Source of the DNA: a virus
Length of the DNA stretch: 44,309 nucleotides
Strand: one strand, 5' to 3'
IMG/VR virus record: IMGVR_UViG_3300046689_000634
Span: 1 to 44,309 of that record
Numbering within the stretch: the stretch's first letter is position 1; each line of letters begins with the position of its first letter. Positions 1,173 through 37,282 of the stretch are shown here, piece after piece. Below the pieces are notes generated by a model. That model was not told the DNA's origin. It did not search any database and saw only the letters and a program-made list of their open reading frames with translations. Made by a program: the position numbers and the translations under genes.

Positions 1173-2594
1173 ATGCCGAGACACGCTGCTTCCGCGACCC
1201 GAGGCCTCATCAAACGTCACCGCGACGACTGTGCGACCCGTCGATACCTCGACCGCTGCGACTGCCCCTGGCGCGGGAAGTATCGCGCGCACGAGGTCCT
1301 GCTGGCGAAGTGGGCCGGGCAGCCCGTCAAACCGCGCGACGCGGGCGCCGCCGTCACCGTGCTGCGGCGGATGCAGGCCGCGGTCGACGCCGGCGAGTTC
1401 GACCCCAACGGCGAACGCGCCCCGCTCGGCGACGACACGAGCCTGCGCGCGTTCATCACCGAGTACAAGTCGCGGTACGCCGAGAAGCACGACCTCTCGC
1501 AGGCCAGCCTCTACCCGATGCTCGACGTGATTGCGCGCGGGCGCCTCGGCGGCCTGACCCTCGAGGAGCTCGCCGGCAACCCGTCGACGATCGAGGACTG
1601 GCTCGACGCGCCCGAGAAGGACCCGAAGGGGCGCGCGCGGACGTGGAGCGCGAAGACCTACAACGCCTACCACGGGCTGCTGCACACCCTCTGCGAGCGC
1701 GCGACCGTCTGGACGGTCAAGGGCGTGGCCCGCATGGCGCACAACCCGATGAAGGCGATCGACTGCAAGGTGGCGGCGCAGCCCGGGCACTTCCGCGAGC
1801 GGCATCTCGACGAGGACGTCGAGGATCGGTTGTTCGCGGCGTGCGACACGTTGAACCGGCCGGCGCACCCGACCACCAAGGCGAAGCTGACGCAGGCGAT
1901 CGCCGACGACATCCGCACCCGCCTCGCCGCCGGCGAGCTCGGGGTCGCGGTCGCCCGGCGCTACGCCATCTCCCCCGCGGTGGTGTCGTCCATCAAGCAC
2001 GGCGACATCTGGAACCCCGAGCGCGTGGTCGGCACCAAGGGCACCGAGATGCGCCGGCGCCTGGTCGCGGCCTTCGACGCCGGCCTGCGCGCGGGCGAGA
2101 TGCTGCAGATCACGCTGGCGCACGTCAACTGGCGGCTGCAGCGCGTGCGGCGCGAGGACGGCACCGAGCTCGCCGGCTACCAGCTGGCGCTGCCGCCCGA
2201 GCTCACCAAGGGCGGCAAGCGCACGGGCGAGACGCAGTACGTGTTCGTCGCGACCGAGCGCGGCAAGGCGATGCTCGAGGCCCGGCGGTTTCAGCTGAAG
2301 AACAACAAGCCGACGCAGCAGTTCGTCTTCGGCGACGAGGCGGGCCGCCAGGTGAAAGGGTTCCGGCGGATGTGGCGCGAGCTGTTCGAGCTGGCCGGCC
2401 TGACCTGGGGGCGGGACCACGGGGTCGTGTGGCACACCATCCGGCACGAGTACATCTCCCGGGTGGCCGAGCTCACCGACCCGGTGATCGCGCAACAGCT
2501 CGCGCGGCACGCCAACCTGGCGACGACCGAGCTCTACTTCAACACCCGTCGCGACAGGCAGCTGTCGGCCGCTGCTGGCCTCAGTCGGCGGTAA
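1173..2594 (+). CDS. int: Tyrosine-family phage integrase
   Basis: Site-specific recombinase that would join attP (2677-2725) to the host tRNA-Pro gene. With start ATG 1173 (GGGGGA ahead of it; an in-frame GTG at 1140 lies inside the promoter) it has 473 residues. The catalytic set is visible: Arg306 in GLRAGEML, His421 and Arg424 in HTIRHEY, His446 in LARHANLATT and nucleophile Tyr455 in TELYFNTRRD. The N-terminal 60 residues carry a Cys-containing basic segment (RRYLDRCDCPWRGKYR) resembling the arm-binding domain of phage integrases. An extra helix-turn-helix-like segment, about residues 239-283, interrupts the region just before Arg306 (see findings). It stops 5 bp before the first 31-bp arm repeat. 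Confidence 0.95.
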   Translation: MPRHAASATRGLIKRHRDDCATRRYLDRCDCPWRGKYRAHEVLLAKWAGQPVKPRDAGAAVTVLRRMQAAVDAGEFDPNGERAPLGDDTSLRAFITEYKSRYAEKHDLSQASLYPMLDVIARGRLGGLTLEELAGNPSTIEDWLDAPEKDPKGRARTWSAKTYNAYHGLLHTLCERATVWTVKGVARMAHNPMKAIDCKVAAQPGHFRERHLDEDVEDRLFAACDTLNRPAHPTTKAKLTQAIADDIRTRLAAGELGVAVARRYAISPAVVSSIKHGDIWNPERVVGTKGTEMRRRLVAAFDAGLRAGEMLQITLAHVNWRLQRVRREDGTELAGYQLALPPELTKGGKRTGETQYVFVATERGKAMLEARRFQLKNNKPTQQFVFGDEAGRQVKGFRRMWRELFELAGLTWGRDHGVVWHTIRHEYISRVAELTDPVIAQQLARHANLATTELYFNTRRDRQLSAAAGLSRR

Positions 2595-2598
2595 TATG

Positions 2599-2629
2599 CC
2601 GGCCAAAATCGTGAAGCCATCGTGAAGCC
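2599..2629 (+). repeat. 31-bp direct repeat flanking attP, left copy (likely integrase arm site)
   Basis: This 31-bp stretch recurs without mismatch at 2806-2836, on the other side of the tRNA-derived core. Each copy begins CCGGCCAAAA and contains two tandem 11-bp units (ATCGTGAAGCC twice). Paired direct arm repeats around an attP core are typical binding sites for the N-terminal domain of lambda-type integrases. Confidence 0.85.
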
Positions 2630-2654
2630 AAACCCGCAAATGTGCGATTGGCGT

Positions 2655-2668
2655 GGGGCTTCGGCCCC
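2655..2668 (+). terminator. Hairpin with TTCG tetraloop after int
   Basis: GGGGC (2655-2659), loop TTCG, GCCCC (2664-2668). It is a very stable short hairpin 60 bases after the integrase stop. No T-run follows, so factor-independent termination is uncertain. Confidence 0.45.
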
Positions 2669-2676
2669 CTGGACGG

Positions 2677-2725
2677 TCGGTTCGGGACCGAGGGGTCGCA
2701 GGTTCAAATCCTGCCGCCCCGACCA
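2677..2725 (+). other. attP core: 3' half of tRNA-Pro(CGG)
   Basis: The segment reads as a tRNA 3' half in order: anticodon stem and loop (TTCGGGA, anticodon CGG at 2683-2685, stem 3' side CCGAG), variable loop GGGTC, T stem-loop GCAGG-TTCAAAT-CCTGC (2698-2714), acceptor strand CGCCCCG (2715-2721), discriminator A and CCA (2723-2725). No matching 5' half lies upstream, so this is not a tRNA gene. The outermost anticodon-stem pair (G2676/G2692) is mismatched, so identity with the host gene probably starts at 2677. Integration into the host tRNA-Pro(CGG) gene would rebuild an intact tRNA. Confidence 0.9.
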
Positions 2726-2736
2726 CACTTCCCGCA

Positions 2737-2756
2737 AAATCCTAAGAAATCCTAAC
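2737..2756 (+). repeat. Tandem 10-bp repeat next to attP core
   Basis: AAATCCTAAG is followed directly by AAATCCTAAC, 11 bases after the tRNA CCA end. The unit resembles the AAATCCTG of the T arm. It may be an extra integrase or excisionase contact site. It is short, so this is tentative. Confidence 0.5.
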
Positions 2757-2805
2757 CTTTCGACGCGGTGCCTACCGGCAGCTACCTGCTGCTGTAGGCC
2801 ACTAT

Positions 2806-2836
2806 CCGGCCAAAATCGTGAAGCCATCGTGAAGCC
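2806..2836 (+). repeat. 31-bp direct repeat flanking attP, right copy
   Basis: Perfect second copy of 2599-2629 with the same two tandem ATCGTGAAGCC units, 207 bp downstream and in the same orientation. A CCTAC/GTAGG inverted repeat (2771-2798) lies between it and the core. Apart from these sites I see nothing coding in 2597-2881. Confidence 0.85.
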
Positions 2837-2881
2837 GGAGGAGCCCTCCATCCGGCTCGACGGATGTGAGGCGCAGGCGTC

Positions 2882-3769
2882 GTGAGCACCGCCGCGACCC
2901 TCGCCGCCAATGCCCGTGCCACCGAGCAGCGGGTCGTTGCCTTCTTTGCCGCGCGCGGCTTGCGTCCCTCGCCCCGGGCGTACGGGGCGTGCGCCCGCGT
3001 CGTCGCGGGCCGGCGCTGCGGGCTGAGCTCGGGGACGTACTCGTGTGAGTGCCAGCAGTTCCACCGGCTGTTCGATCACGGCCGGACCTGGCTCGACCCC
3101 GCCGGTCATCGTGTGATCTCTGGTGAGCCGTACGGGATCGACGACGAGGTCCTGCGGCGCTTTCAACAGCAGGTGGCTGACCCCTTGGACCTCGTCGTCA
3201 GCACAGAACCCAACTCTCCCTGGTTCCCGGGCCACACGTCCCTCGTGCTCGTGCAGCGGAGGACCTCGACCGCAAAGGAGCACGTTATGAGGATCGTTCC
3301 ACCGTCCGCACCGCCGAAGCCACCGCGGCTCCAGATGGAGCAACGGCAGATTTACGAGGCTCTGGGGGCCGCGCGCGAGCACGGCCACGTCATAGAGGTC
3401 GAGTTTTATTGTGAGCGGCCGGCTTGTGCAGCCCGCGAGATTCGCGTCACGTTGAAGGACCACGACAGCAACCTGGTCCCCCACATGGCCCACCACGTCG
3501 TGGCCTGCCCGATCTGCAGCCATCCCGTCAAAGTGCATTGGGTCCGAAGCGCCCACGACCAGGCGCGACACGACGAGGCCCTTGCCCGTAGCAGCGTGAA
3601 CACGCAGATGTTCCTGCGGGATCTCCCGCCTGACGAGCTCGGGGCGGTGCCCGCGAGCGTGCTGTGCGACGAGCGACTACCGCCAACCCCGCCAGGGTGG
3701 TTTGATGACGCGCCACCACCCGAGCCGAAACCCACGCGCGTATTCCGATCGAAATCGAGGACCGAATGA
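2882..3769 (+). CDS. Hypothetical protein with central zinc-ribbon-like Cys pairs, 295 aa
   Basis: GTG start, 45 bp right of the arm repeat, so in the prophage this would be the outermost gene at one end. Residues about 15-130 form a globular domain with aromatic and acidic residues (FHRLFDHGRTWLDPAGH, EPYGIDDEVLRRFQQQV). A second part (about 150-235) has CERPACAA and CPICSH pairs, likely a Cys4 zinc ribbon. The C-terminal 50 residues are Pro-rich and disordered. Third positions are less GC-rich than in the structural genes, as is common for cargo. The stop overlaps the next ATG (ATGA). I do not recognise the family. Confidence 0.7.
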   Translation: MSTAATLAANARATEQRVVAFFAARGLRPSPRAYGACARVVAGRRCGLSSGTYSCECQQFHRLFDHGRTWLDPAGHRVISGEPYGIDDEVLRRFQQQVADPLDLVVSTEPNSPWFPGHTSLVLVQRRTSTAKEHVMRIVPPSAPPKPPRLQMEQRQIYEALGAAREHGHVIEVEFYCERPACAAREIRVTLKDHDSNLVPHMAHHVVACPICSHPVKVHWVRSAHDQARHDEALARSSVNTQMFLRDLPPDELGAVPASVLCDERLPPTPPGWFDDAPPPEPKPTRVFRSKSRTE

Positions 3770-6588: not shown

Positions 6589-7098
6589 TCGCGACAGGCG
6601 TTGTTCGTCGAGGCCTTCCTGGGCCCCGCCGCGGGCAACGCGACAAAGGCCGCCCTGGCGGCCGGTTACAGCCTCGCCGGCGCGCGCCAGGCCGGGCACA
6701 AGCTCCTGCAGAAGCCCCAAGTCGTCGCCAAATTGGGTGACACCAGGGACAAATTGGGGACGGCCGTCGCCGTCGCCGACGCGGCGCTGATTACGCACGG
6801 CGTGCTGACCGGCGACCAGGCGCTCGAGCGCCTGAGCCTCATCGCGCAGGCCGACATCACCGAGCTCCTCCCCAAGCAGCACCGCCTCCGCAAGCTCCCG
6901 CGGCAGCTGCGGCTCCTCATCAAATCCGTCAGGCCCACCGCGCACGGCGAGGTGCTCGAGGTGCATGACGCGATGCGCGCGACCGAGCTCCTGGCGCGCG
7001 CCGGCGGCAAGCTGAAGGAAACCATCCAGGTCGAGTCGCTCGAGGACGTGCTCGCACGGTCGTGGAAGTACCACCGGCCGGAGAGCGTGGCCTCGTGA
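6562..7098 (+). CDS. Terminase small subunit, 178 aa
   Basis: DNA-recognition subunit of the packaging motor. LTSRQALFVEAFL, NATKAALAAGYS and GARQAGHKLLQKPQV form the typical N-terminal helix-turn-helix of Terminase_2 proteins; the helical rest is the oligomerisation part. No ATG or GTG is available: start TTG 6562, or TTG 6583, which gives MTSRQALF and may be better. No clear ribosome binding site is seen for either, which fits a nearly leaderless mRNA from the 6513-6542 promoter. The stop overlaps the large-subunit GTG (GTGA). Confidence 0.85.
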   Translation: MTPRPHRLTSRQALFVEAFLGPAAGNATKAALAAGYSLAGARQAGHKLLQKPQVVAKLGDTRDKLGTAVAVADAALITHGVLTGDQALERLSLIAQADITELLPKQHRLRKLPRQLRLLIKSVRPTAHGEVLEVHDAMRATELLARAGGKLKETIQVESLEDVLARSWKYHRPESVAS

Positions 7099-8618
7099 GC
7101 GCCGACCTCGACGCGCGCGCGATCGCCGCCTGGCGCCTCGACCCCGTCGCCTTCGTCGTCGACAACTTCAACGTGCAGCCCGACCCGTGGCAGGTCGATG
7201 CGCTGCGCGCGTTCGCCAACCCCGCGATCCAACGCATCAGCCTGCAGGCGTGCGCCGGGCCCGGCAAGAGCGCGGTGCTGGCCTGGTGCCTGCTCAACTT
7301 CCTCGCGTGCTACGGCGACGCGGGCGATCACCCGAACGGCGCCGCCGTCTCCATCACGCAGCAGAACCTGCGCGACAACCTGTGGAAGGAGCTCGCGAAG
7401 TGGCACGCGCGCTCGGCGTACGTGAGCTCGCGCTTCACCTGGACCGCCGAGCGCATCTTCGCCAACGCGCACCCGTCGACGTGGTTCCTGTCGGCCAGGA
7501 CCTGGCCCAAGACCGCGAGCCCGGACGAGCAGGGCAAGACCCTCTCGGGGCTGCACGGGCGCTTCGTCATGGCGGTCGTCGACGAGTCAGGCGCCATCCC
7601 CACGACCGTGCAACGCGCCGCCGAGCAGGCGCTCGCGACCGGCCCGCAATTCGGAAAAATCATGCAGGCCGGCAACACGCTGACCCTCGACGGGATGCTG
7701 TACGCGGCGGCCTCGAGCCTGCGCGACCAGTGGTTCGTCGTGCGCGTGACCGGCGACCCTGACGACCCGAAGGCCTGGGTCCACAGCCCCCGCGTCGGGC
7801 CCGAGCCGGCCAAGTGGGCCGCCACGCAGATCGCCGCCTACGGTCGGGACAACCCGTGGGTGATGGCCTACATCCTCGGGCTGTTCCCGCCGGCCAGCAT
7901 CAACGCGCTCCTGGGCGTCGACGAGGTCGAGGAGGCGATGGCCCGGCACCTGGCGCCGGATGCCTTCGAGTGGGCGCAGAAGCGCCTGGGCGTCGACGTC
8001 GCGCGCTACGGCGACGACCGGACCGTCATCTTCCCGCGCCAGGGCATGGCCGCCTTCCAGCCGATCGTGCTGCGGCACGGGCGGGGCAGCGCGGTGTCGG
8101 TCGACATCGCGACGCGCGTGATGAACGCGAAGGTGAAGTGGGGCGCCGAGGCCGAGTTCTTCGACGCCACCGGTGGGTGGGCAGCCGGCGCGGTCGACGT
8201 CCTGCGGGCGCAGGGCTACACGCCGATCGACGTGCAATTCGCGGCGCCGAGCTACGACAACCGCTACGCCAACCGGCGAGCCGAAATCTGGTTCTCGATG
8301 GCCGAGTGGGTCAAGCGCGGCGCCGCGCTGCCCCCGATGCCCGAGCTCCTCAAGGAGCTCATCACCCCGACCTACACGTTCAAGAACGGCAAGCTGCTGC
8401 TCGAGGACAAGGACCTCATCAAGAAGCGCATCGGCACCTCGCCCGACCTGGCCGACGCGCTCGCGCTCACCTTCGGGATGCCGGAGATGCCCGGGGGCCT
8501 CGGCGCCCGCGCCGTCGGCCACGCGCTCACCGAGTTCGATCCGTTCCGCCCGCCGCAGGACAGCGACCAGTCCGGCGTCGGCCACGCGATCACCGAGTTC
8601 GACCCGAACGAGAGGTGA
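7095..8618 (+). CDS. Terminase large subunit, 507 aa
   Basis: ATPase and nuclease of DNA packaging. Walker A GPGKS (55-59), Walker B VVDE (Asp163-Glu164), RNase H-like nuclease with VDVARYGDD (Asp301) and SPDLADALA (Asp451, Asp454). The start is GTG 7095, overlapping the small-subunit stop. The last 45 residues contain a short duplication, VGHALTEFDP then VGHAITEFDP, 21 codons apart, after the nuclease domain (see findings). Its position directly after the small terminase and before the portal is standard for tailed phages. Confidence 0.95.
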   Translation: MSADLDARAIAAWRLDPVAFVVDNFNVQPDPWQVDALRAFANPAIQRISLQACAGPGKSAVLAWCLLNFLACYGDAGDHPNGAAVSITQQNLRDNLWKELAKWHARSAYVSSRFTWTAERIFANAHPSTWFLSARTWPKTASPDEQGKTLSGLHGRFVMAVVDESGAIPTTVQRAAEQALATGPQFGKIMQAGNTLTLDGMLYAAASSLRDQWFVVRVTGDPDDPKAWVHSPRVGPEPAKWAATQIAAYGRDNPWVMAYILGLFPPASINALLGVDEVEEAMARHLAPDAFEWAQKRLGVDVARYGDDRTVIFPRQGMAAFQPIVLRHGRGSAVSVDIATRVMNAKVKWGAEAEFFDATGGWAAGAVDVLRAQGYTPIDVQFAAPSYDNRYANRRAEIWFSMAEWVKRGAALPPMPELLKELITPTYTFKNGKLLLEDKDLIKKRIGTSPDLADALALTFGMPEMPGGLGARAVGHALTEFDPFRPPQDSDQSGVGHAITEFDPNER

Positions 8619-21028: not shown

Positions 21029-21804
21029 CGCACAGCATGGACGTCGCGCACTTCAACCAGGTCGCGAACGACCCGACGGTGCGCCCGTGGCTCGGCGGCA
21101 GCGGCGCGCTCGACTTCGCGCGCGTGATTGACGACCCGAGCAACTTCGCGTTCGCCAGTGAGCACGGCGGCATCCTCGCGGTCGCGCTCGGCTCGGGGCG
21201 CTACGACATCCACACGCTCTTCCTCGAGGAGGGCCGCGGGCTCGAGGCGCTCGAGACGGCGCGCGACGTGGCCGACTTTCTCTTCGGGCGCACCGACTGC
21301 GTCGAGGCGCGCACGACGGTCCCGCTGCTCAATCGTGCGGGGCTCGGCCTGGCGAAGCGCATCGGGTTCGAGCTCCGGTTCGAGAGCGCGCTGCCCTGGC
21401 ACGACGGCGACACGGTGCCGGCCGGGTTCTACACGCTCACGCTCGAGCGATGGGCGCTCACCGCGCCGAGCGCGCGGCACGCCGGCGCCGAGTTCCACCA
21501 GGCGCTCGAGGCCGAGAAGCACCGGCTCGGCTCCACGCTCCCCGGCCATCCTGACGACGAGGTCCACGATCGGATCGCCGGCTCGGCGGTGATCATGACG
21601 CGCGGCGGCCAGGTCGAGAAGGCGGTGCGGTTCTACAACGTCTGGGCGCAGGTGACGCGCTACGACACGATCGCGCTCCTCCGAGTCTATCCGCCGATCC
21701 TCGACGTGCAGGGGTTCACGATGTCGATGACCGCCGGCGGCGAGCTCGTGATGTTGCGCTGTGGAGAAGGGAGAGAGGTATGCCCGTCGGCATCGGTATC
21801 CTGA
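21025..21804 (+). CDS. GNAT-like acetyltransferase-domain virion-region protein, 259 aa
   Basis: The N-terminal 150 residues follow the GNAT plan seen in podovirus proteins at this locus: a strand pair GGILAVALGSGRYDIHTLFL, EEGRGLEALETARDVADFLF and ARTTVPLLNRAGLGLAKRIG. The C-terminal part (EFHQALEAEKHRLGSTLPGH, AVRFYNVWAQVTRYDTIALL) is a separate domain. The acyl-CoA loop is not clear, so activity is doubtful. Similar proteins sit between the nozzle and internal proteins of BPP-1-like phages by recall. Its end overlaps the next gene by 25 bases. Confidence 0.6.
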   Translation: MTHSMDVAHFNQVANDPTVRPWLGGSGALDFARVIDDPSNFAFASEHGGILAVALGSGRYDIHTLFLEEGRGLEALETARDVADFLFGRTDCVEARTTVPLLNRAGLGLAKRIGFELRFESALPWHDGDTVPAGFYTLTLERWALTAPSARHAGAEFHQALEAEKHRLGSTLPGHPDDEVHDRIAGSAVIMTRGGQVEKAVRFYNVWAQVTRYDTIALLRVYPPILDVQGFTMSMTAGGELVMLRCGEGREVCPSASVS

Positions 21805-22334
21805 TCGGGGTCACGGTCGGTGGCATCGTGATGGATGTCATCGGCAAGATCAAAGCGGGCAACGCCGCCAAGAACATTGGCGACTACAACGCCGCGCAGT
21901 ACGAGCTCCAGGCGCAGGACGCGATCCAGCGCGGCGGCGCCGACGAGGAGAAGTTCCGCGCCGGCGTCAAGACGCTGATCGGCGGGCAGCGCGCCGGGTT
22001 CGCCGGGCAGAACGTCGACATCGGCCAGGGCACGCCCGTCGACGTCGTCAGTGATACCGCCTTCCTCGGCGAGCTCGACGCGCTCACCATCCGGCAGAAC
22101 GCGCAGCGCGAGGCGCACGGGTATGAGGCGATGGCCCAGAACGCGCGCATGGGTGGCGACGCCGCCAAGAGCGCCGCCTACTGGAGCGCCGGCGCGACCG
22201 CGCTCGGCGGTGCCGGCTCGCTGCTGGCCGCCCGCTACGGGTGGGGCCGGTCGACGACGCGCGGCGGCACGAACCTCGGCAACTCCTCGAGCGGGGTCGG
22301 CGACTTCAACAACTATGCCCAGGTGACCGGCTAA
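21780..22334 (+). CDS. Internal virion protein, gp14-like, 184 aa
   Basis: Small, Ala/Gly-rich protein with a hydrophobic N-terminus (GIGILIGVTVGGIVMDVIG) and a helical core (KAGNAAKNIGDYNAAQYELQ, AGVKTLIGGQRAGFAGQNVD). This, the length, and the order nozzle - small - medium - giant protein match T7 gp14-gp15-gp16. In T7 these are ejected into the host envelope to form the DNA channel. The call rests on position and character rather than a motif. Confidence 0.7.
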   Translation: MPVGIGILIGVTVGGIVMDVIGKIKAGNAAKNIGDYNAAQYELQAQDAIQRGGADEEKFRAGVKTLIGGQRAGFAGQNVDIGQGTPVDVVSDTAFLGELDALTIRQNAQREAHGYEAMAQNARMGGDAAKSAAYWSAGATALGGAGSLLAARYGWGRSTTRGGTNLGNSSSGVGDFNNYAQVTG

Positions 22335-24010
22335 TGCCGCGCGTGCAAGCGTACGGGCCGCGGCGCGTCGAGCTCCGACCCATCGCCGGCGGGCAGCGCA
22401 CGACCGTGCCCGGGCCCGATTCCTTCGGCGCGGTGTTTGGCGAGACGGCCACCCGGCTCGGGCTGCCGATCCTCATCAACCAGTGGACCGAGGAGCGCAA
22501 CAACGCCGACCAGGTGGCGCACCTCGAGGCGGTCAACAAGCTCGACGCCTTCACCAACGACCTGCTCTACAACCCGTCGAGCGGCGCGCTCCAGGTCAAG
22601 GGCAAGGACTCGCTCGACCTGGCGAACACGGTGATGCCGAAGTACGAGGAGACGGCCGGCGAGATTATGAACGGCCTGTCGAACGACCGGCAGAAGCAGG
22701 CGTTCCACGCTTCCGTCTTGCAGCGCCAGCGCGACGTGTCCCTCACGCTGATGCGGCACACCGCCGGCGAGATGCAGGCCTACGACCAGGGCGAGACGGC
22801 GTCGGCCGTGAAGAACGCCGTCAACAGCGCGATCGCCAACCCGCTCAACCCGCAGGCGATTCACGACGGCCTCACGCGCGCCGAGGCGGTCACGATCGAT
22901 CACGGCCAGCGCGCGGGGTGGGGGCCCGAGGAGCTCGCCATGCAGCTCGGCGCCATCCGCACCTCGACGCACACCGGCGTGATCGACGGGCTCCTGTCGC
23001 GCGGCCAGGACAAGCTCGCGCGCGCGTACTACGAGGAGACGAAGGCGCAGATCAACGGCGAGAGTCAACCGAACATCGAGAAGGCGCTCGACGCCGGCTC
23101 GACGCTCGGCGAGTCGCAGCGCCAGGCCGACGCGATCATGAAGAGCACGACCGACGAGGCCGCCGGGCTGAACCAGGCCAAGAGCATCGAAGACCCGAAG
23201 GTGCGCGCGGCGACCGAGGAGCTCGTCCACCGCTACTACACCTTGGCCGAGGAGCAGCGCCGGCAGACCGCCGAGCACGCGACGATCGAGGCCGGCAACC
23301 TGATCGACGCGAACCCCGCGCTCGGGGTGCGCGCGATCCCGCCGCGGATGTGGACGACGTTCACGGTGCCCGAGAAGGCCGGCCTCGAGGCGTACGCGAA
23401 ACGCAACGCGCCCGGCGAGGCGGTCGTGAAGACCGATTGGGGCACGTACTACGGCCTGATGAAAGAGGCCAACGAGCACCCCGAGCTGTTCGCGAAGCGC
23501 AACCTGATGCTGTCGAAGGGCGCGCTCGCCAACGCCGAAATCAAACAGCTCATCGAAATCCAGACGACCGCGCGCGAGAAGAAACCCATCGAGCCGCTGC
23601 TCGACGGGTTCCGCACGATCGACGACACGCTCAAGGGCTACCTGATCGGCGCCGGCATCGACGTGCGCGACAAGGCCAACGATCCGGTCGTCGAGGCGTT
23701 CCACGAGCTGGTGAACAAGCAGGTCGTGCAGCTCGAGGGGCTGACGAAGAAGAAGGCCGACAAGACCGACATCGAGAAGATCGCGGCCGACGTGATCAGC
23801 CGCCAGATCCTGAGCTCGCCGACGACGATGCAGTCGCTGTTCAACCTGCCGCGGACGCCGAAGCGGTTGATCGAGGCGACGATCGACGACGTGCCGCCGT
23901 TCATGCGCGGGCAGATCGAACGCGCGCTCATCGGGAAGAAGGTGCCCGTCACCGACCAGAACATCCTGAGCATGTACAAGGCGCAGCAGCTCCAGCAGAG
24001 GCCGGAGTAG
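22334..24010 (+). CDS. Internal virion protein, gp15-like, 558 aa
   Basis: Almost wholly helical and charged (RQKQAFHASVLQRQRDVSLT, EELVHRYYTLAEEQRRQTAE, LEAYAKRNAPGEAVVKTDWG). There is no membrane segment or catalytic motif. Its place between a gp14-like and a giant gp16-like gene, with a one-base stop/start overlap upstream and direct abutment (TAGATG) downstream, indicates the middle ejection protein. A tubular role in the periplasm is known for T7 gp15 and only inferred here. Confidence 0.7.
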   Translation: MPRVQAYGPRRVELRPIAGGQRTTVPGPDSFGAVFGETATRLGLPILINQWTEERNNADQVAHLEAVNKLDAFTNDLLYNPSSGALQVKGKDSLDLANTVMPKYEETAGEIMNGLSNDRQKQAFHASVLQRQRDVSLTLMRHTAGEMQAYDQGETASAVKNAVNSAIANPLNPQAIHDGLTRAEAVTIDHGQRAGWGPEELAMQLGAIRTSTHTGVIDGLLSRGQDKLARAYYEETKAQINGESQPNIEKALDAGSTLGESQRQADAIMKSTTDEAAGLNQAKSIEDPKVRAATEELVHRYYTLAEEQRRQTAEHATIEAGNLIDANPALGVRAIPPRMWTTFTVPEKAGLEAYAKRNAPGEAVVKTDWGTYYGLMKEANEHPELFAKRNLMLSKGALANAEIKQLIEIQTTAREKKPIEPLLDGFRTIDDTLKGYLIGAGIDVRDKANDPVVEAFHELVNKQVVQLEGLTKKKADKTDIEKIAADVISRQILSSPTTMQSLFNLPRTPKRLIEATIDDVPPFMRGQIERALIGKKVPVTDQNILSMYKAQQLQQRPE

Positions 24011-27000
24011 ATGCCCGGGCCCCAGGACCCGAACGTCAACCCGTTCGACGCGATCGCCGATCAGCTGTTTGGCGGCGCGCCGACGCGCATGAAGGTCGCC
24101 GGCGACGTCGCCGACCAGGACACGCCCGACGACGCGGCGAAGATCCTCGACCTGTCGCACGCGACCGGCCTGCCGCCGGATGTGGTGCGGCAGAACCTGG
24201 CGGGCATCAAGAAGCACGTCGACAAGCTGGCGACGCCCTACCAGGACATCCTCAACCAGACGCCGCACACCGCGACCCTGATGCAGCAGCCGACCGAGCG
24301 GGCCGCGGCGAAGGACGACCTCGAGCAGCTCGGCACGCTCGAGTGGCTGACCAACGCGATCCCGCGCGCCTGGTCCCGCGGCAACGCCTCGCTCGAGCTC
24401 TCGCAGCTGCGGTTCAAGGACCTGATGGGCGACACGCCCCTGACGGCCGCGGAGCACCGGCGCATCGCGGACCTGAAGCAGCAGACCGGCGAGGGCGGCG
24501 CGCTCGGCACCGAGGGGCACTGGTTCCGCGGCGCGCTCGCCGGCTCCACCGAGCAGCTCCCGCTGTTCCTCGGCTCGTTCAAGGAAGGGTTCCACTACGG
24601 CCTGGCCGGGCAGACGCTCGGCCTCGTCGGCGCCGTCGGCGGCGGCATCCTCGGCGGGCTCGTCGCCGGCCCGCCCGGCATCGTGGGGGGCGCGCTCGAG
24701 GGCGCGACCGCGCTGACCGCGGCCGGCGGCGAGGCCGGCTTCCTGGTGGGCAACGCGAAGTTCGCCTTCGAGACGGCGGCGGGGCAGAGCTACGAGGCGC
24801 TGCTCAACATGAAGGACGAGCTCGGGCGCCCGCTCGACCCGAAGGTCGCCCGGGTGGCCGCCATCGCCGCCGGGATGGCGAACGGCGTGCTGATGACCGC
24901 CGGCACCCGGCTGCTGCTCAAAGGGCTCCCAGGCGCCGACAAGCTCGTGGGCGCCGCCGGCCAGAGCGCGATCGAGACGGCGCTCAAGGTGCCGCGCGTC
25001 CGGTCCGCGCTGCTGCAGCTCGCCGGCCAGTACGGCAAGACGCTGACCCTCGAGACGATCAACATGGTCGGCCAGCGCGCGGTGCAGATCCTGGCCGAGG
25101 AGGCCGCGAAGGTCGCCGACACCGCCCAGGGCGGGCTGCCGCCGCCGCCCGAGGGCGACCAGTCGTTCTTCCGCGAGGACGGCACGCAGAAGGGCGAGGG
25201 GTTCTTCGGCAACCTGCGCCTGCCGACCGGCGTCGCGAGCGAGTTCTCAATCGCCGACAGCGAGAAGATCAAGGACAAAGCCGGCAAGTACCTCGACTAC
25301 CCGAGCCTGGTGCCGACGCTGACGGTCGACGAGGTCAAGGCGGTGATGGCCGCGGCCGCGGACCCGACCGGCAAGACGAAGATCCCGGGCAGCGTCTACA
25401 CGAAGGCCGAGGCGTTCGCGCTCGAGCGCCAGAAGGCCGGGCTGCCGTTCTTCGCGCAGCCGGGCGAAGCGAACACCACCGTCTACCCCGAGCTCGAGCG
25501 CCTGGCCGCCGGCCGCACGCGCATCCCGCTGCGCTCGCCCATGGAGATTGCCGCCGACCTGGTGCAGTCGGGCCTGAGCGCCGCGCAATCGTTCGCGCTG
25601 CTCACGCTGCCCGGCCCGACGGGGCACTTCCTGCGCGAGGTCGCGCGCGCCCACGATGCCGGCCAGGTCGAGACGTGGCTGCTCGCCGTCGGCAAGGGCG
25701 TCGAGAAATCCGCGACCGCGAAACGCGCGCCGGCGGTCGTCGAGCAGCTCCTCGCGCAGGCGACCCAGGACGGCCCCCACGAGACGCTGTACGCCCCGAT
25801 CGACGACTGGACGACGTACTGGCAGAGCAAGGGCGTCGACCCCGCGGAGATGGCGACGCGCGTCACCGGCGACCGCCAGGCGTACCAGCAGGCGCTCGAC
25901 GGCAAGACCGAGCTCGCGATCCCGACCGCCAAGTACGCGGTGACGCTCGCCGGCACCGAGCACAACGCGCACTTCGCGAAGTTCCTCCGGCTCGACCCGA
26001 GCCTGATGAACGCCGACGAGGCGGCGCGGTTCCAGCAGGAGCTCGCGAAAGAGTTCCGCAAGCCGACGACCCCGCCCGCGGGCGCGCCCGCCACCCCCGA
26101 GCAGGAGGCGGCGACGGCCATTCACGCGGACCAGACCGAGCGGCTGATGCGCCAGGGCCTGACGCGGGCCAACGCGGAAACCAGCGCGACCGTCATGCAA
26201 CGGTGGATCACGACGTTCGCGCGCGTGATGAACCAGGACCCGCGCGACATCTATCGTCGCTACGGGTTCACCATCGGAGGACCCAATGAAACAGCACAAG
26301 AGGCCATCGCCCGCCGTGCGGCCGACGAAGCACGCGGCGAACGTCCAGCGACTACAGCTCGAGCGGGCGAAGGCGGCGCCGCCGCCGGTGAACCCGCAGC
26401 CACAGCTCCAGGCGGCGCAGGGGGTACGGAAGAACCCGTCGCCGGCGCCGGGCGCCCCACCGGACCCGGGGGAGCTGATCTAACCGCCGTCATGCAGGCG
26501 GCCACCGAGGCCGACCTTAACAAGCTGCTCGTCCACCCGGACGAGCGGCTCAGCAACCTGGCGGCCGACGAAATCAACCGGCGCGCTACAATAGGCGCAC
26601 CTGATGCCTCCGAAGCCGGAACCGGAGCTGCGGCCGGGGAACGACCCGGCGACGGTGGCGTACAACGCGAGGCTCCTGGCGCAGCACGGGTACCCGATGC
26701 CGGAGGCGAAGGCGCACGCCCTGAACCACGCCGGCTACCGGCCCCCGATCCAACCGAGCGATTCGTCCGGCCCACCCCCGAGTCCGTCGCTGCCCGCGTC
26801 ACCCCAGAAATAACGCGCGAGCTGGAGCGCATGCTCCAAGAGGCCGAGGACCAGCCCTACGAGGGCCGGCGGTGGCACTTCCTCGACCCGGAGGAGTCCG
26901 GTGCGCGCGGGCTGCGCGGCAACGCCGCCGGCGGCCAGGCCATCATCCAGAAGGGCCACGGCCAGGCGGATGTCTACGGCGACATCCTCACGTACTCGCC

Positions 27001-30000
27001 GTTGAACCCGGTCACGTCGGGCGAGCGCAAGGGCGAGCTCGCGCGCGGTGGCAAGTGGGGCGCCGACGCGCCCGGCGCCAAGGTCGTCAACGCGATCCGC
27101 GACCTGCTCGCCGGCAAGGGCGTCAAGAACAACCTCGGCGAAGGCGCGCTGCGGGTGGCCGAGCGGCGCGCGATCAACGACTACAGCGTCATCGAACGCC
27201 CGATGTATCCCCCGCATTGGGGCACCGACGCGACGCCTGACTTCGTCGCCACGGTCCAGCGTCTGATCGACGCGGTCGACGACCCGACGAAGACGCTCGA
27301 GCAGGGCGGCGTCGGCATGGGCGTACGCTTCCCCGACCAGCCCGCGGGCGGGGCGACCGGCCTCGATGCCGCGCCCGCCGAGCGCAAGGACGGCGCCCTG
27401 ATCCTGTCGGCCGCGCGCCCGACCGAGACGCAGAACACGCCGTACCGGCGGTCGCCGCTCACCTCGACGCTGGCCTCCTTCAGGGCGCTGCCGGCGAAGC
27501 TCGCCCAAGCGGCGGCCCTGTTCCGCTCGTACCACCTCCTGACGAAGGAGGAAGCGCGGACGAAGGACCCCGCGGTGCTCGTCGACCGGGCCGTCACCGC
27601 GATGAAGCGCAACCTGCGGGCCCTGTGGGAGGCGTACCCCGCCGACTGGCGCGAGCGCGCGCAGCACTGGTACGTCGGCGCGAACCGCATCGCGCACGAG
27701 CTCGCCGGCGCGCATGGCGTCACCGTCGACCAGGCGGTGGGCGTGCTCGCGGCGCTCTCGCCGCAGATGGACTGGTTCAAGAACGTCAGCCTCGCCGAGC
27801 GGGTCCTGCGCTCGGTGAAGGAGTTCCAGCAGACCAACCCGACGTTCACGCCCGACCTCTTCGCGGACTACGAGCGCCGCGCCCTGGCGACGACGGAGGA
27901 CCGCATCACGCAGCGCCGGCGGGCGGGCGCGCCGTTCACGCGCGCCGAAGAAAAGGCCTTCCGCGCGAAGAAGGCCGCGATCGTCGACGAGCTCCGCGCG
28001 CAGGTCGTCGGGCACTCGTGGACGGACCTCGACCTCGAGGGGAAGGCGGTGTTCCTCCGGGCGGTCGATGAGCGCACCCCCCGGGACTATTCGGTCATTT
28101 CGCCGGAAGGCGATCGCCCGGACCTGGCGCGCACGGCGAGCGGCGCGCCCGCCGCGATCGGGTGGGGCACCTACAACTTCATCGCGAACGCGATCAGCAT
28201 CGCGCTCGACGGCAGCCCGGAGAACATCAGTGCGCGGTTGGGCATCGAGCACAAGGTGCGCTCGTTCTTCAACAACGTCAGCCATCCCTTCGACCCGCGG
28301 TTCGTGACGATCGACACGCACGCCGTCGCGGCGGCGTTCCTGCACCCGTTCTCGGGCGACGCCGAGCCGGTGCGGAACGCGATGGGCATGAAGCACCCGG
28401 ACGGCGGCTCGGTCCCGCAGCACGCGCCGACGGGGCTCTCGGGCACCAACGGGATCATCGCGCAGGCGTACTTCGACCTCGCGCACGAGCTCGGCGTGGA
28501 CCCGCGCGCGCTGCAGTCGGTGACGTGGGAAGCGGTGCGCGGCCTCTTCGAGCCCGGCCAGAAACGCGGGGCCGCGGGGGTGCAACTCGGCTCGAAGATC
28601 GACGCCCTCTTCAAACAGTACGAGCGTGGTAAAATCAGCCATGCCGAGTTCGTCACCGCGCTCCACGACGCCGCCGGCGGATTCGTCCCACCCGCCTGGG
28701 TCGACTACCCGGTATCGGAACAAGGCGCACTGGCTGGCGCATCAGTTCTTCCCCGACGACCCGAGCTTTCCGCTGGACCCGGAGGTGGAGGCGTCGATTC
28801 CGAAGGCGCTGCCGGGGCGCGTCCCGCAGAACGAGACGGAGTACTACTCGGACCTGTAGGCAGCCGCACCTTCGAGCAGGGCCCGCCGCCTGACCAGGGC
28901 GGGCTGTTCGACCACCCCCCCACCGACACCCTCGACACCGGCGAACAACAGCCGCGCCTACCCGGCGCCGAAGGCGTGCGCGACGAGAACGTCCCCACGC
29001 CGGCGGTCGCCGAGGCGCCGTTCTCGCTGACCGCCGAGATCGCGCAGCGCGCCGCCAAACAGAAGACGCTGTTCCAGGGCCCCCCGCACGCGCCGATCGT
29101 CCTCTACCAGGGCGTCTATCACGGCAGCCCGCACCTGTTCGATCGCTTCGACATCACCAAGGTGGGCACCGGCGAGGGCGCGCAGGTCTACGGGTGGGGG
29201 CTCTACTTCGCGAGCCGGAAGGAAGCCGCGCAGTGGTACCGCGAGAACCTGGCCGGCAAGCCGCGGCCGGCGCACCTCGCGCACGAGGGCGTCAACATCT
29301 TCGACGAAAACGGGCTCTACCACCTGCGTGACTCGGCGCCGGGCGACCGGCTCCCCAAACGCGCGCAAGACCCGAAGCTGCAGGACGGCCTGCTCGAGCT
29401 CAACCAGATGCTCGCGCACGACCGCCTGAAACCAGGGCCCGAGGGGCTCGCGACCGCGCGGACGTTTCTCGAGGCGGGCCTCGCACGCGACAAGGAGCAC
29501 CTCAAGTCGTTCGCGCGCGAGAACCCTAACAACCCCGACGTGCAGCTGGCGACCCGCGCGATCAAGCGGGGCATATCGGAGAAGCAGAACGCCCTGGCGG
29601 TGCTCGACACGTACGGCGACAAGCTCACGATCGAGCCCCCGCAGAAACCCGGGCGCCTCTACCACGTCGAGCTCCCCGACGATGCGACGTTCCTGAATTG
29701 GGACAAGCCGCTGCACGAGCAGGACCCGAAGGTACTCGAGATTCTCGACAACTCGGGCCTGGGCAAGGCGCTCGGCCAGGGACACTACGAGGACGCGCGC
29801 GACAACTTCCTGCGCGACCTCGAGCAGGCCGTCGGTCCCGACAAGGCGCCCGAGGCCGTCGCGCTCGCGACGCGCCTGTTCGAGCACCCCGAGGAGCTCC
29901 GACCGAAACAGGCCGACGACGAGCGGACGTATCTCTGGCTCCATCAACTGACCAAGGGAACCAACATCGACCTGAACCGCATCCTCGACATTGACCGCTA

Positions 30001-34366: not shown

Positions 34367-37282
34367 ATGGTCGGCCCCAAAACGCCGCGCGCCCCGCTCG
34401 CCAAGCAGATCGGCGCGAACGGCTCGACCGGCCTCGTGCGCGTCGACCCGGCCGGCCATCCCGAGGCGGTGCCCTACGCCGAGCTCGTGCCCTTCCTCAT
34501 CGACCAGGGGGTCGTCTTCCCCGGCGGCGGCACGGGCGGCGGCGGGGGTGCCGGCGGGGGACAAGGCATCCCCGGGCCACAGGGCGAGCCGGGCGACCCG
34601 GGTGACCCCGGGCCACCCGGCCCACCTGGCGCACCAGGGGCGTCAGGACCGACGGGTCCGGCCGGCCAAGGCCTGCCGGGCCCGCCAGGCGATCAGGGCG
34701 ACCCCGGCGAACCGGGACCGCCAGGACCGGCGGGATCGATCGGCGCGACCGGCCCGGCCGGCGTCGGGCTGCAAGGCTTGCCCGGGCCCCCGGGACCGCA
34801 GGGCGATCAGGGCGACCCGGGTGACCCCGGCCCGCCCGGCGCGGCCGGGGCCACGGGAGCGTCAGGACCGACGGGGCCGGCCGGCCAAGGCTTACCGGGG
34901 CCGCCTGGCGACCAGGGCGACCCTGGCGAACCAGGGCCACCGGGACCGCAGGGACTCCAAGGGCCACAGGGCGCGACCGGCGCGAATGGCGCCGACGGCG
35001 CGACCGGGCCGCAAGGGAGTCAGGGATTCCCCGGGACCGTGGGTCCACAGGGCGACCAGGGCGACCAGGGCGATCCTGGCCCGCCTGGGCCGCAGGGGCT
35101 CCAAGGGCCCCAGGGCGCCACCGGCGCGAACGGCAACGACGGCGCGACCGGGCCGCAGGGGATTCAAGGCCTGCCCGGGCCGGTGGGTCCACAGGGCGAG
35201 CAGGGCGATCCTGGTGACCCCGGCGTGCCAGGACCGTCGGGGCCGGCCGGCGCGACCGGGCCGGCGGGTGTCGGGATTCAAGGCGTACCCGGGGGACCGG
35301 GCCCACAAGGGGAGCAGGGCGACCCGGGCGATGTCGGGCCGCCAGGACCGCAGGGCGTGCCTGGGCCGCAGGGCACGACCGGCGCGAACGGGAACGACGG
35401 CGCGCCCGGTTCGACGGGGCCGCAAGGGATTCAGGGCTTCCCCGGGCCGGTCGGTCCAGTGGGCGACCAGGGCGACGCCGGCGATGTCGGGCCGCCTGGC
35501 CCGCAGGGCGTGCCCGGCCCACAAGGTGCCACCGGCGCGAATGGCAACGACGGCGCGCCCGGCTCGACGGGACCCCAAGGGATTCAGGGATTCCCCGGGC
35601 CGGTGGGCCCGCAGGGCGACCAGGGCGATCCTGGTGACCCAGGCCCGCCTGGCACGCCAGGCGCGGCAGGGGCCGCAGGGGCGTCAGGACCGACGGGGCC
35701 GGCCGGCCAAGGCTTACCGGGGCCGCCTGGCGACCAGGGCGACCAGGGCGATCCTGGCCCACCAGGACCGGCAGGGCCGATCGGCGCGACCGGGCCGGCG
35801 GGCGTCGGGATTCAAGGCGCCCAAGGGGGACCGGGCCCGCAAGGCGAGCAGGGCGACCCGGGCGACCCGGGCCCCCCAGGACCGGCGGGTGCCGCGGGCG
35901 TCGCGGGTTCGACTGGCGCCATGGGACCGCAGGGACCACAGGGTGTGCCCGGCGCGGAGGGCGCCGAGGGCGAGGTCGGGCCGCCTGGACCCGTCGGGCC
36001 GCAAGGTCCGCTCGGCGCGACGTTCCCGCTCTACGCCGTCGTCGACGACTTCAACCGCAACGACGAGTCGCCGCTGAAGGCGAGCACCTGGCGGGCGGTC
36101 GCCTACTACGCCAACCGGCTCAAGCTCACCTCGAGCGCGGTCGCCCAGGTGACGACGCCGTCGGGCGCGATGGCGTGGAACACGCCGTTCGACCTCAACT
36201 TCAACGCCTACGTGCGCGTGCCCGTGCTGCCGAACGTCGACACCAGCTTCGTCGCGATCGACATGGTGGTGGACCCCGCGGGCACCGGCGACGGGTTCCG
36301 CGTGCAGCTGTACAACGGCAGCGGCAACTTTCTCCTGTACCTCTATCGCATCACGGGCGGGGCCACCGTCGGCCTGGGCCCGGTGCCGGTGCTCCTGCCC
36401 ATCGTCGCGGGCAACTGGATCGGCATCGAGCGATACGGGACGACGATTCGGACGTGGCTGCGGGCCGGCGGGGTCTGGACGAAGGTGCAGGAAACCATCG
36501 ACACCTCGTCGGCGGTGCCGTTGTACCCGACGCTGGTGATCGACGGCACGACCGTCGCGCGGCTCGACGACTTCGGCGGCGGGCCGGTGCACGGCGAGGT
36601 GCCCGCGAACGTCGCGCTGACGGATGCGAGCAACACGTTCGCCGAGCGCCAGTACATCAAGCCGGGGCCGAGTTACGCCTACCCGCAGCTCTGCCTGACC
36701 GACACCACCGCCGCCGCCAACCAGCAGAAGTTCCGCTTGGTCAATGCCGTCGGGCGGCTCTACCTGCAGCCCATGGACGACGCCGAAACGACGGCCGCCG
36801 CGACCGTCACGATCGATCGCACCGGGCTGATCGCCACCACGGGCGCGTACGTGGAACGCAACCGCGCCGCGGCGATGGGCGAGTGGCAGGACGAACCGTT
36901 CAGCGCGGCGAAGTTCTCGGGGCAGAGTCCGCTGGTCTGGACCGTGGGCTCGGCGGCGATCATCAACAATCGGTACAGCGTCGTGGGCAAGACGTTGTTC
37001 TGGCAGCTGTATCTCTCGTGGTACTCCGGCGCGAACGTGCTCAGTGGGTCGCCGAACGGCGTGCTCTTTCTCACGCTGCCGGGCGGCTTCACCTGTGCGG
37101 GCCACGGCGGTATCACTGCGGTCGACTTTAGCGCCGGGATCGCCGGGATGCCCTACAACGGGATGCTGTTTCTCTCGTCGACCGCCGGCAACTATCTCCA
37201 ACTCAACGCCGGGGACAACCGCAACTTCGCCCTCACCGACATCCCCGGCCTCGTCTTCAACATCACGATCGAAATTGCATGA
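34367..37282 (+). CDS. Collagen-like tail fibre protein, 971 aa
   Basis: The first 60 residues ([20 protein letters not shown], Gly-rich hinge) probably attach to the tail. Residues about 65-547 are nearly unbroken Gly-X-Y repeats ([19 protein letters not shown] and variants), expected to form a collagen triple helix. The C-terminal 420 residues form globular domains ([20 protein letters not shown], a LamG-like beta sandwich; then [15 protein letters not shown] and a final domain ending in FNITIEIA), probably the receptor-binding trimer. Long arrays of Gly-Asp/Gln-Gln triplets favour hydration. It follows the internal proteins, the place of gp17 in T7. Confidence 0.88.
34558..36012 (+). repeat. 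Collagen-coding repeat tract
   Basis: About 485 Gly-X-Y triplets. At DNA level larger units of roughly 100-200 bases recur (for example GGCCGGCCAAGGCTTACCGG at two places; GGCGCGAATGGC variants). Such arrays expand and shrink by recombination, so fibre length may vary between isolates. Confidence 0.85.

Follow-up and report, generated by a model that had tools for sequence, protein, structure and literature searches.

We describe here a giant gene with small genes nested at its module junctions, found in a 44,309-base IMG/VR virus record (IMGVR_UViG_3300046689_000634; hereafter the window, in its full length). The record belongs to a podovirus with a T7-like order of ejection genes, in which a gp14-like and a lysozyme-like gene are followed by a single open reading frame (ORF) of 3,451 codons. 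At three module junctions of this giant ORF codon usage moves to the +1 frame, over small ORFs that we call n1, n2 and n3 (the last at 28713-28859); each lies wholly inside the longer ORF, with both frames open. We consider it probable that the small overlapping genes are the older partners and that the giant frame overprinted them, yielding linkers and fused giants with small genes trapped inside. Read directly from the sequence are the +1 signature, a nested-frame conservation of n2 and n3 that the giant frame does not share, and a series leading from free-standing overlap to full nesting.

Codon usage changes frame at three junctions

A three-state Viterbi segmentation by codon usage, to which no coordinates were supplied, placed +1 stretches at 26277-26480 (log-likelihood ratio 42), 26595-26756 (46) and 28713-28856 (60), the third ending at the nested TAG. 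This is the frame-specific check over the giant ORF that a first-pass annotation had proposed, and it confirmed the shifted stretches. The annotation had described two nested genes, n1 and n2, both of which were recovered, and had missed the third. Their coordinates, start and stop codons and the CGGAGG site are as it had given them, and its hand counts of GC content at third codon positions (GC3) were reproduced: 0.89 in the nested frame vs 0.54 in the giant frame for n1, and 0.94 vs 0.50 for the first 50 codons of n2. Between n1 and n2 the giant frame indeed regains GC-ending codons (GC3 0.84). The description of n2 as a frame-switched stretch holds for those first 50 codons and fails for the last ~19, where the signal is lost (nested 0.74, giant 0.79) because the giant frame there enters the conserved module B ('LPAPDP...').

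Could composition alone produce such a pattern? The linkers are rich in Gly, Ala, Pro and Glu, out-of-frame ORFs are long in this genome, and open length by itself is uninformative at 70% GC; linkers of this kind might thus imitate an out-of-frame signal. As a null, the giant protein was re-encoded synonymously with its own codon usage in 300 simulations. Shifted segments appeared in 0/300 recodings and giant-frame GC3 in the nested stretches lies 15-22 standard deviations below the recoding expectation, so that Gly/Ala/Pro/Glu composition is not the explanation. The drop falls at free third positions, and the nested-frame homology across phages described below refutes an artefact for n2 and n3. 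We give this alternative practically no credence.

A pair of compensating frameshifts (two indels) in an older continuous linker, formerly encoded in the nested frame, would likewise yield a shifted signature bounded by the giant frame. However, two of the stretches run precisely to a stop codon of the nested frame, and both n1 and n2 open with an ATG; moreover, the same frame recurs in distant phages and n3 also exists as a free-standing gene. Such a history appears highly improbable to us.

Only 13 +1-frame ATGs occur in the giant ORF, and n1 and n2 each start at one of them. A Shine-Dalgarno (SD) site of 5 nt is found at 1/13, namely that of n1. The similarity of the giant to its core homologues ends at nt ~26281, ~5 bases ahead of this ATG. 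The support for n1 consists of its codon signature, start, SD site and stop, and the gene looks intact though it has no relatives. A third-frame ORF of 1,268 codons (22483-26289), whose TGA overlaps the n1 start as ATGA, was considered as a clue and rejected, as it is never the best-scoring coding frame there. It lies across the lysozyme-like and giant genes and resembles a shadow ORF.

n2 is conserved in its own frame

Two more distant phages, IMGVR_UViG_3300018059_000004 (L014) and IMGVR_UViG_3300037264_002141 (L094), have modules A and B in common with the window, and their giant frames are open through the junction. Homologues of n2 are nested there in the +1 frame (L014, 17421; L094, 7891), begin with MP at an ATG and carry an SD-like site. 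Over the first 43 n2 codons, which the giant frame reads as unconstrained linker, similarity in the nested frame (Z 5.4, 9.6 and 20.8) exceeds that in the giant frame (-0.1, 1.7 and 5.9); at the 3' end conservation extends to both frames, owing to the onset of module B ('LPAPDP'). Across the three phages the n2 frame therefore shows coding constraint independent of the giant frame, and n2 looks maintained. The first-pass annotation had named linkers conserved in the giant frame, with broken nested frames, as evidence against nested genes; the opposite was seen. The AlphaFold model of n2, made from three sequences, has a two-helix core (pLDDT, the predicted local distance difference test score, ~90 in the core and 74.8 overall).

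Viral scans with n1 or n2 alone matched only an identical contig, and close relatives of the window phage were likewise limited to identical contigs. Two further contig scans and a repeat viral scan with module B added nothing.

The n3 family is both free-standing and nested

The third stretch matches a +1 nested segment in locus L015 and looks like a truncated member of a small family associated with DUF7178. A DUF7178 scan returned 80 loci, 67 of them unique, which were compared with an n3 profile built from nested products. The family is present at the DUF7178 C-terminus in 33/67 unique loci, in the +1 frame in 32/33. It begins inside the 3' end of the DUF7178 module, with its own start near that end, and its full domain reads DPL..l...G.PLT+..Yl...PL.aE.e...P. 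In 20 of the 33 loci n3 is nested, the long ORF remaining open for >150 nt beyond it. In about nine, the DUF7178 stop lies inside or just before n3. Between these two states, L141, L135 and L147 (n3 near 6950-7220) are candidate intermediates of overlap and fusion, in which the DUF7178 ORF reads through n3 and stops just after; L137 ends with its contig. Together with the nested-frame conservation of n2, the coexistence of free-standing and nested n3 bears out both parts of the earlier suggestion, that the linkers harbour small genes or derive from them.

An SD of 4+ nt precedes 17/22 n3 starts, vs 18% of background +1-frame ATGs, and in free-standing n3 it often lies within the conserved DUF7178 'AGGINPPEW' codons. 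Mean similarity (Z) is 15.2 in the nested frame, 2.9 in the giant frame and 2.6 in the third frame, and the nested frame exceeds the giant frame in 78/78 n3 pairs. In this family, too, coding constraint acts on the nested frame independently of the long one, and the intact copies in other phages look maintained. A restricted search also recovered a diverged nested n3 in Rhodobacteraceae phage LS06-2018-MD07 (OP947163; L007:11921-12163, E 7.5e-9). The n3 model is compact and helical (pLDDT 87.5; predicted template modelling score 0.74), and a fold search with it gave no known match.

Profile searches of n1, n2 and n3 against Pfam and PHROGs, and of n3 against NCBIfam, gave no significant match; the best for n2 was phrog_2423 (E 0.025, from the L094 copy). 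Comparison of the nested products with phage records gave no convincing match, and the n2 and n3 profiles are not significantly similar to each other (E 0.13).

These data also bear on which frame came first. Where one viral gene lies inside another, the inner gene is often the more recent, for example phiX174 E (PMC8227390), and the small genes could in principle have arisen de novo within a giant frame that preceded them. To decide which of two overlapping frames is older, codon usage is accepted as evidence (PMC8227390). Here the nested codon usage is typical of the genome and that of the giant frame is atypical at the overlaps, while n3 also stands free beside unfused DUF7178 genes. Because of this we take the small genes to be the older partners, and we regard birth inside the giant frame as very unlikely.

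Recurrence and frame geometry

Among loci picked via DUF7178 or tail-nozzle similarity, whose fractions do not amount to a census, the GC3-rich ORFs of 1,500+ amino acids (aa; n=38) contain 19 +1 segments and 0 +2 segments, and those of 300-1,500 aa (n=226) contain 0 and 1, respectively. The +1-only pattern can be explained by geometry, since the giant frame, seen from the small gene, lies in +2, which is far more often free of stops: in this genome 69-100% of 66-codon windows are stop-free in +2 and 13-23% in +1. In the less GC-rich relatives L107 and L103 the +2 advantage is small or absent, and an open frame is therefore less easily due to chance.

Other small ORFs are nested in +1 within long ORFs (L149:7034-7237, L149:3074-3229, L027:9615-9800, L114:5282-5458, L131:7631-7828, L166:2882-3073 and L097:7772-7942). 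None of the seven was recognised as a relative of n1-n3, which suggests that several small-gene families are trapped inside long ORFs. Near the end of a gp16-like ORF, L071:14733-15396 is a long +1 stretch followed by +2; this looks like a frameshift or a broken gene and not like nesting.

How the overlaps may have arisen

In the ancestral layout that we envisage, a module gene such as DUF7178 would stop a few codons into a small downstream gene in the +1 frame. Loss of that stop would let the frame continue through the small gene in its -1 (= +2) frame, which is nearly stop-free in the most GC-rich genomes, until it reaches the next module. The small-gene sequence would then double as a Gly/Ala/Pro/Glu linker. 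Ribosomes would initiate internally at the individual ATGs of n1, n2 and the intact n3 copies, most of which have SD-like sites, and the truncated n3 of the window would persist as linker only. The giant itself would be made as one chain and translated through the nested stretches, because its C-terminal core half must share the frame of the N-terminal half and no stop intervenes.

Several observations weigh against overprinting of small genes that are still in use. The n3 of the window is N-terminally truncated: its C-terminal part matches the family profile (E 3.1e-13) at the expected position and in the expected frame, and the first helix and the SD are missing. It is probably a decayed copy, a fossil. 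The first-pass annotation had named a complete lack of homologues of the nested products as evidence against them; homologues were found for n2 in L014 and L094, and for n1 there were none in IMG/VR or phage records. The relatives of n2 are just two, and in the window it starts without a clear SD. Downstream of free-standing n3 copies, no separate genes were found for the modules that lie beyond n3 in giants, so that the fusion step is drawn from stop positions only. Between such distant relatives substitution counts by codon position are saturated and did not yield a usable dN/dS per frame. Finally, the case for translation of the small genes is built on sequence features.

Taken further, all nested stretches could be fossils: after fusion only the giant frame would be translated, and codon usage would not yet have re-equilibrated. 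The window's n3, which kept its codon signature after losing start, SD and first helix, fits this well, as does the solitary n1. On the other hand, nested n3 in many giants retains the full domain, start and SD across large divergence where the giant frame is unconserved, and n2 is retained in three phages. We consider it unlikely that every copy is a fossil, and favour overprinted small genes of which some have decayed and others are kept. Because n3 accompanies DUF7178 whether or not the two are fused, our first guess is that its product might be an accessory to the DUF7178 module, as a chaperone, packaging or restraining partner.

The giant protein and its surroundings

When aligned with its 2,039-aa counterpart in Pseudomonas phage PfDIW6 and the 2,854-aa one in Cobetia phage Carin1, the giant shows a shared core of aa 1-~757 plus ~2180-3451. 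The core protein of PfDIW6 is a single ORF without insert, unlike the giant of the window, in which ~1,420 aa of additional modules lie between the core halves and small genes are nested at the module boundaries. The order of gp14-like, lysozyme-like and giant genes and the homologous N- and C-terminal core are those of the T7 gp16-type genes of both phages, and by this position and core the giant is predicted to be a T7 gp16-like internal virion (ejection) protein. It lies among virion genes and has several distinct domains, including polyvalent-associated ones: LPD22 (51.4 bits) and DUF7178 (88.8 bits) score above the Pfam cut-offs, and ART-PolyVal (24.9 bits) below its cut-off of 31.2. Features are collected in Table 1. 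Downstream, GC3 is also lowered (0.68-0.78), with high GC1, at the start (34500-34800) of a collagen-like tail-fibre gene (34367-37282); GC2 is high as well, and this probably reflects the composition of Gly-X-Y repeats.

Table 1. Features of the giant gene, its nested ORFs and upstream neighbours in the window
Feature	Position	Strand	Basis or remark
gp14-like gene	21780-22334	+	upstream of giant; gp14 model 0.1 bit under cut-off
Lysozyme-like gene, gp15 position	22241-24010	+	upstream of giant
Giant ORF, 3,451 aa	24011-34366	+	predicted T7 gp16-like polyvalent internal virion protein; PfDIW6 and Carin1 alignment
SD-like GGAGG (inside CGGAGG)	26276-26280	+	few bases ahead of n1 ATG
n1, 65 aa	26286-26483	+	+1 frame, at end of core module A
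n1-n2 gap ('DLTAVMQAATEADLNKLLVHPDERLSNLAADEINRR')	26484-26603	+	giant-frame signature restored; codon usage
n2, 69 aa	26604-26813	+	+1 frame; homologues nested at same junction and in same frame in L014 and L094
Module B of giant ('LPAPDP...', aa ~903-1097)	26717-27301	+	conserved in giant frame; overlaps 3' third of n2
DUF7178 module of giant	27524-28690	+	Pfam PF23802, E 5.9e-25
n3	28641-28859	+	ATG 28641 (no SD) to TAG 28857; nested codon usage and family similarity only 28713-28856
ART-PolyVal-like module of giant, after n3 (aa 1702-1750)	29114-29260	+	giant-frame homologues; Pfam score below curated cut-off

Relation to known systems

Small genes lying wholly within a same-strand gene in another frame are familiar from phages, as with Rz1 in Rz of lambda. 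The E gene of phiX174 inside D is a further case; there E is regarded as the younger of the two (PMC8227390), whereas here the long frame appears newer at the overlap. The nearest idea comes from hepatitis B virus, for whose polymerase/surface overlap Pavesi (reviewed in PMC8227390, section 8) modelled a short gene between two domain genes, within which a de novo frame became the linker and so united them in a single multi-domain protein; the direction was deduced from codon usage (PMC8227390). That is one animal-virus case, inferred from codon usage, whereas the present arrangement recurs in tailed phages, with unfused and fused states both present. Polyvalent proteins of phages and conjugative elements (Iyer et al., 2017; PMC5512222) resemble our giant in being very large and multi-domain, in gene position among virion genes, and in having LPD22 and an ART-PolyVal-like domain. 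Domain fusion is treated there, in a text that contains neither 'overlap' nor 'linker', and small genes nested in linkers are not described. Nor did we find a description of nested small genes in phage polyvalent proteins in the literature searched, which leaves out most subscription journals.

Implications

A wider generalisation is tempting, and we offer it tentatively, as a conjecture that falls somewhat short of an even chance: giant polyvalent proteins may commonly grow by stop loss at overlapping junctions, overprinting a small downstream gene as linker, and the trapped, uncatalogued small genes may stay functional, translated from within the mRNA of the giant to act as partners of neighbouring effector modules. 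If overprinting of older small genes is correct, its direction would be opposite to that usual for nested genes. It would also reveal a conserved class of small phage genes missing from Pfam, PHROGs and NCBIfam, the likely reason being that gene callers drop any ORF contained in a larger one. Giant phage ORFs in GC-rich genomes would then have to be scanned and mapped afresh. Fusion through a lost stop, with the overlapping gene overprinted to supply the linker, would provide a concrete and testable route by which phages assemble multi-domain effector proteins.
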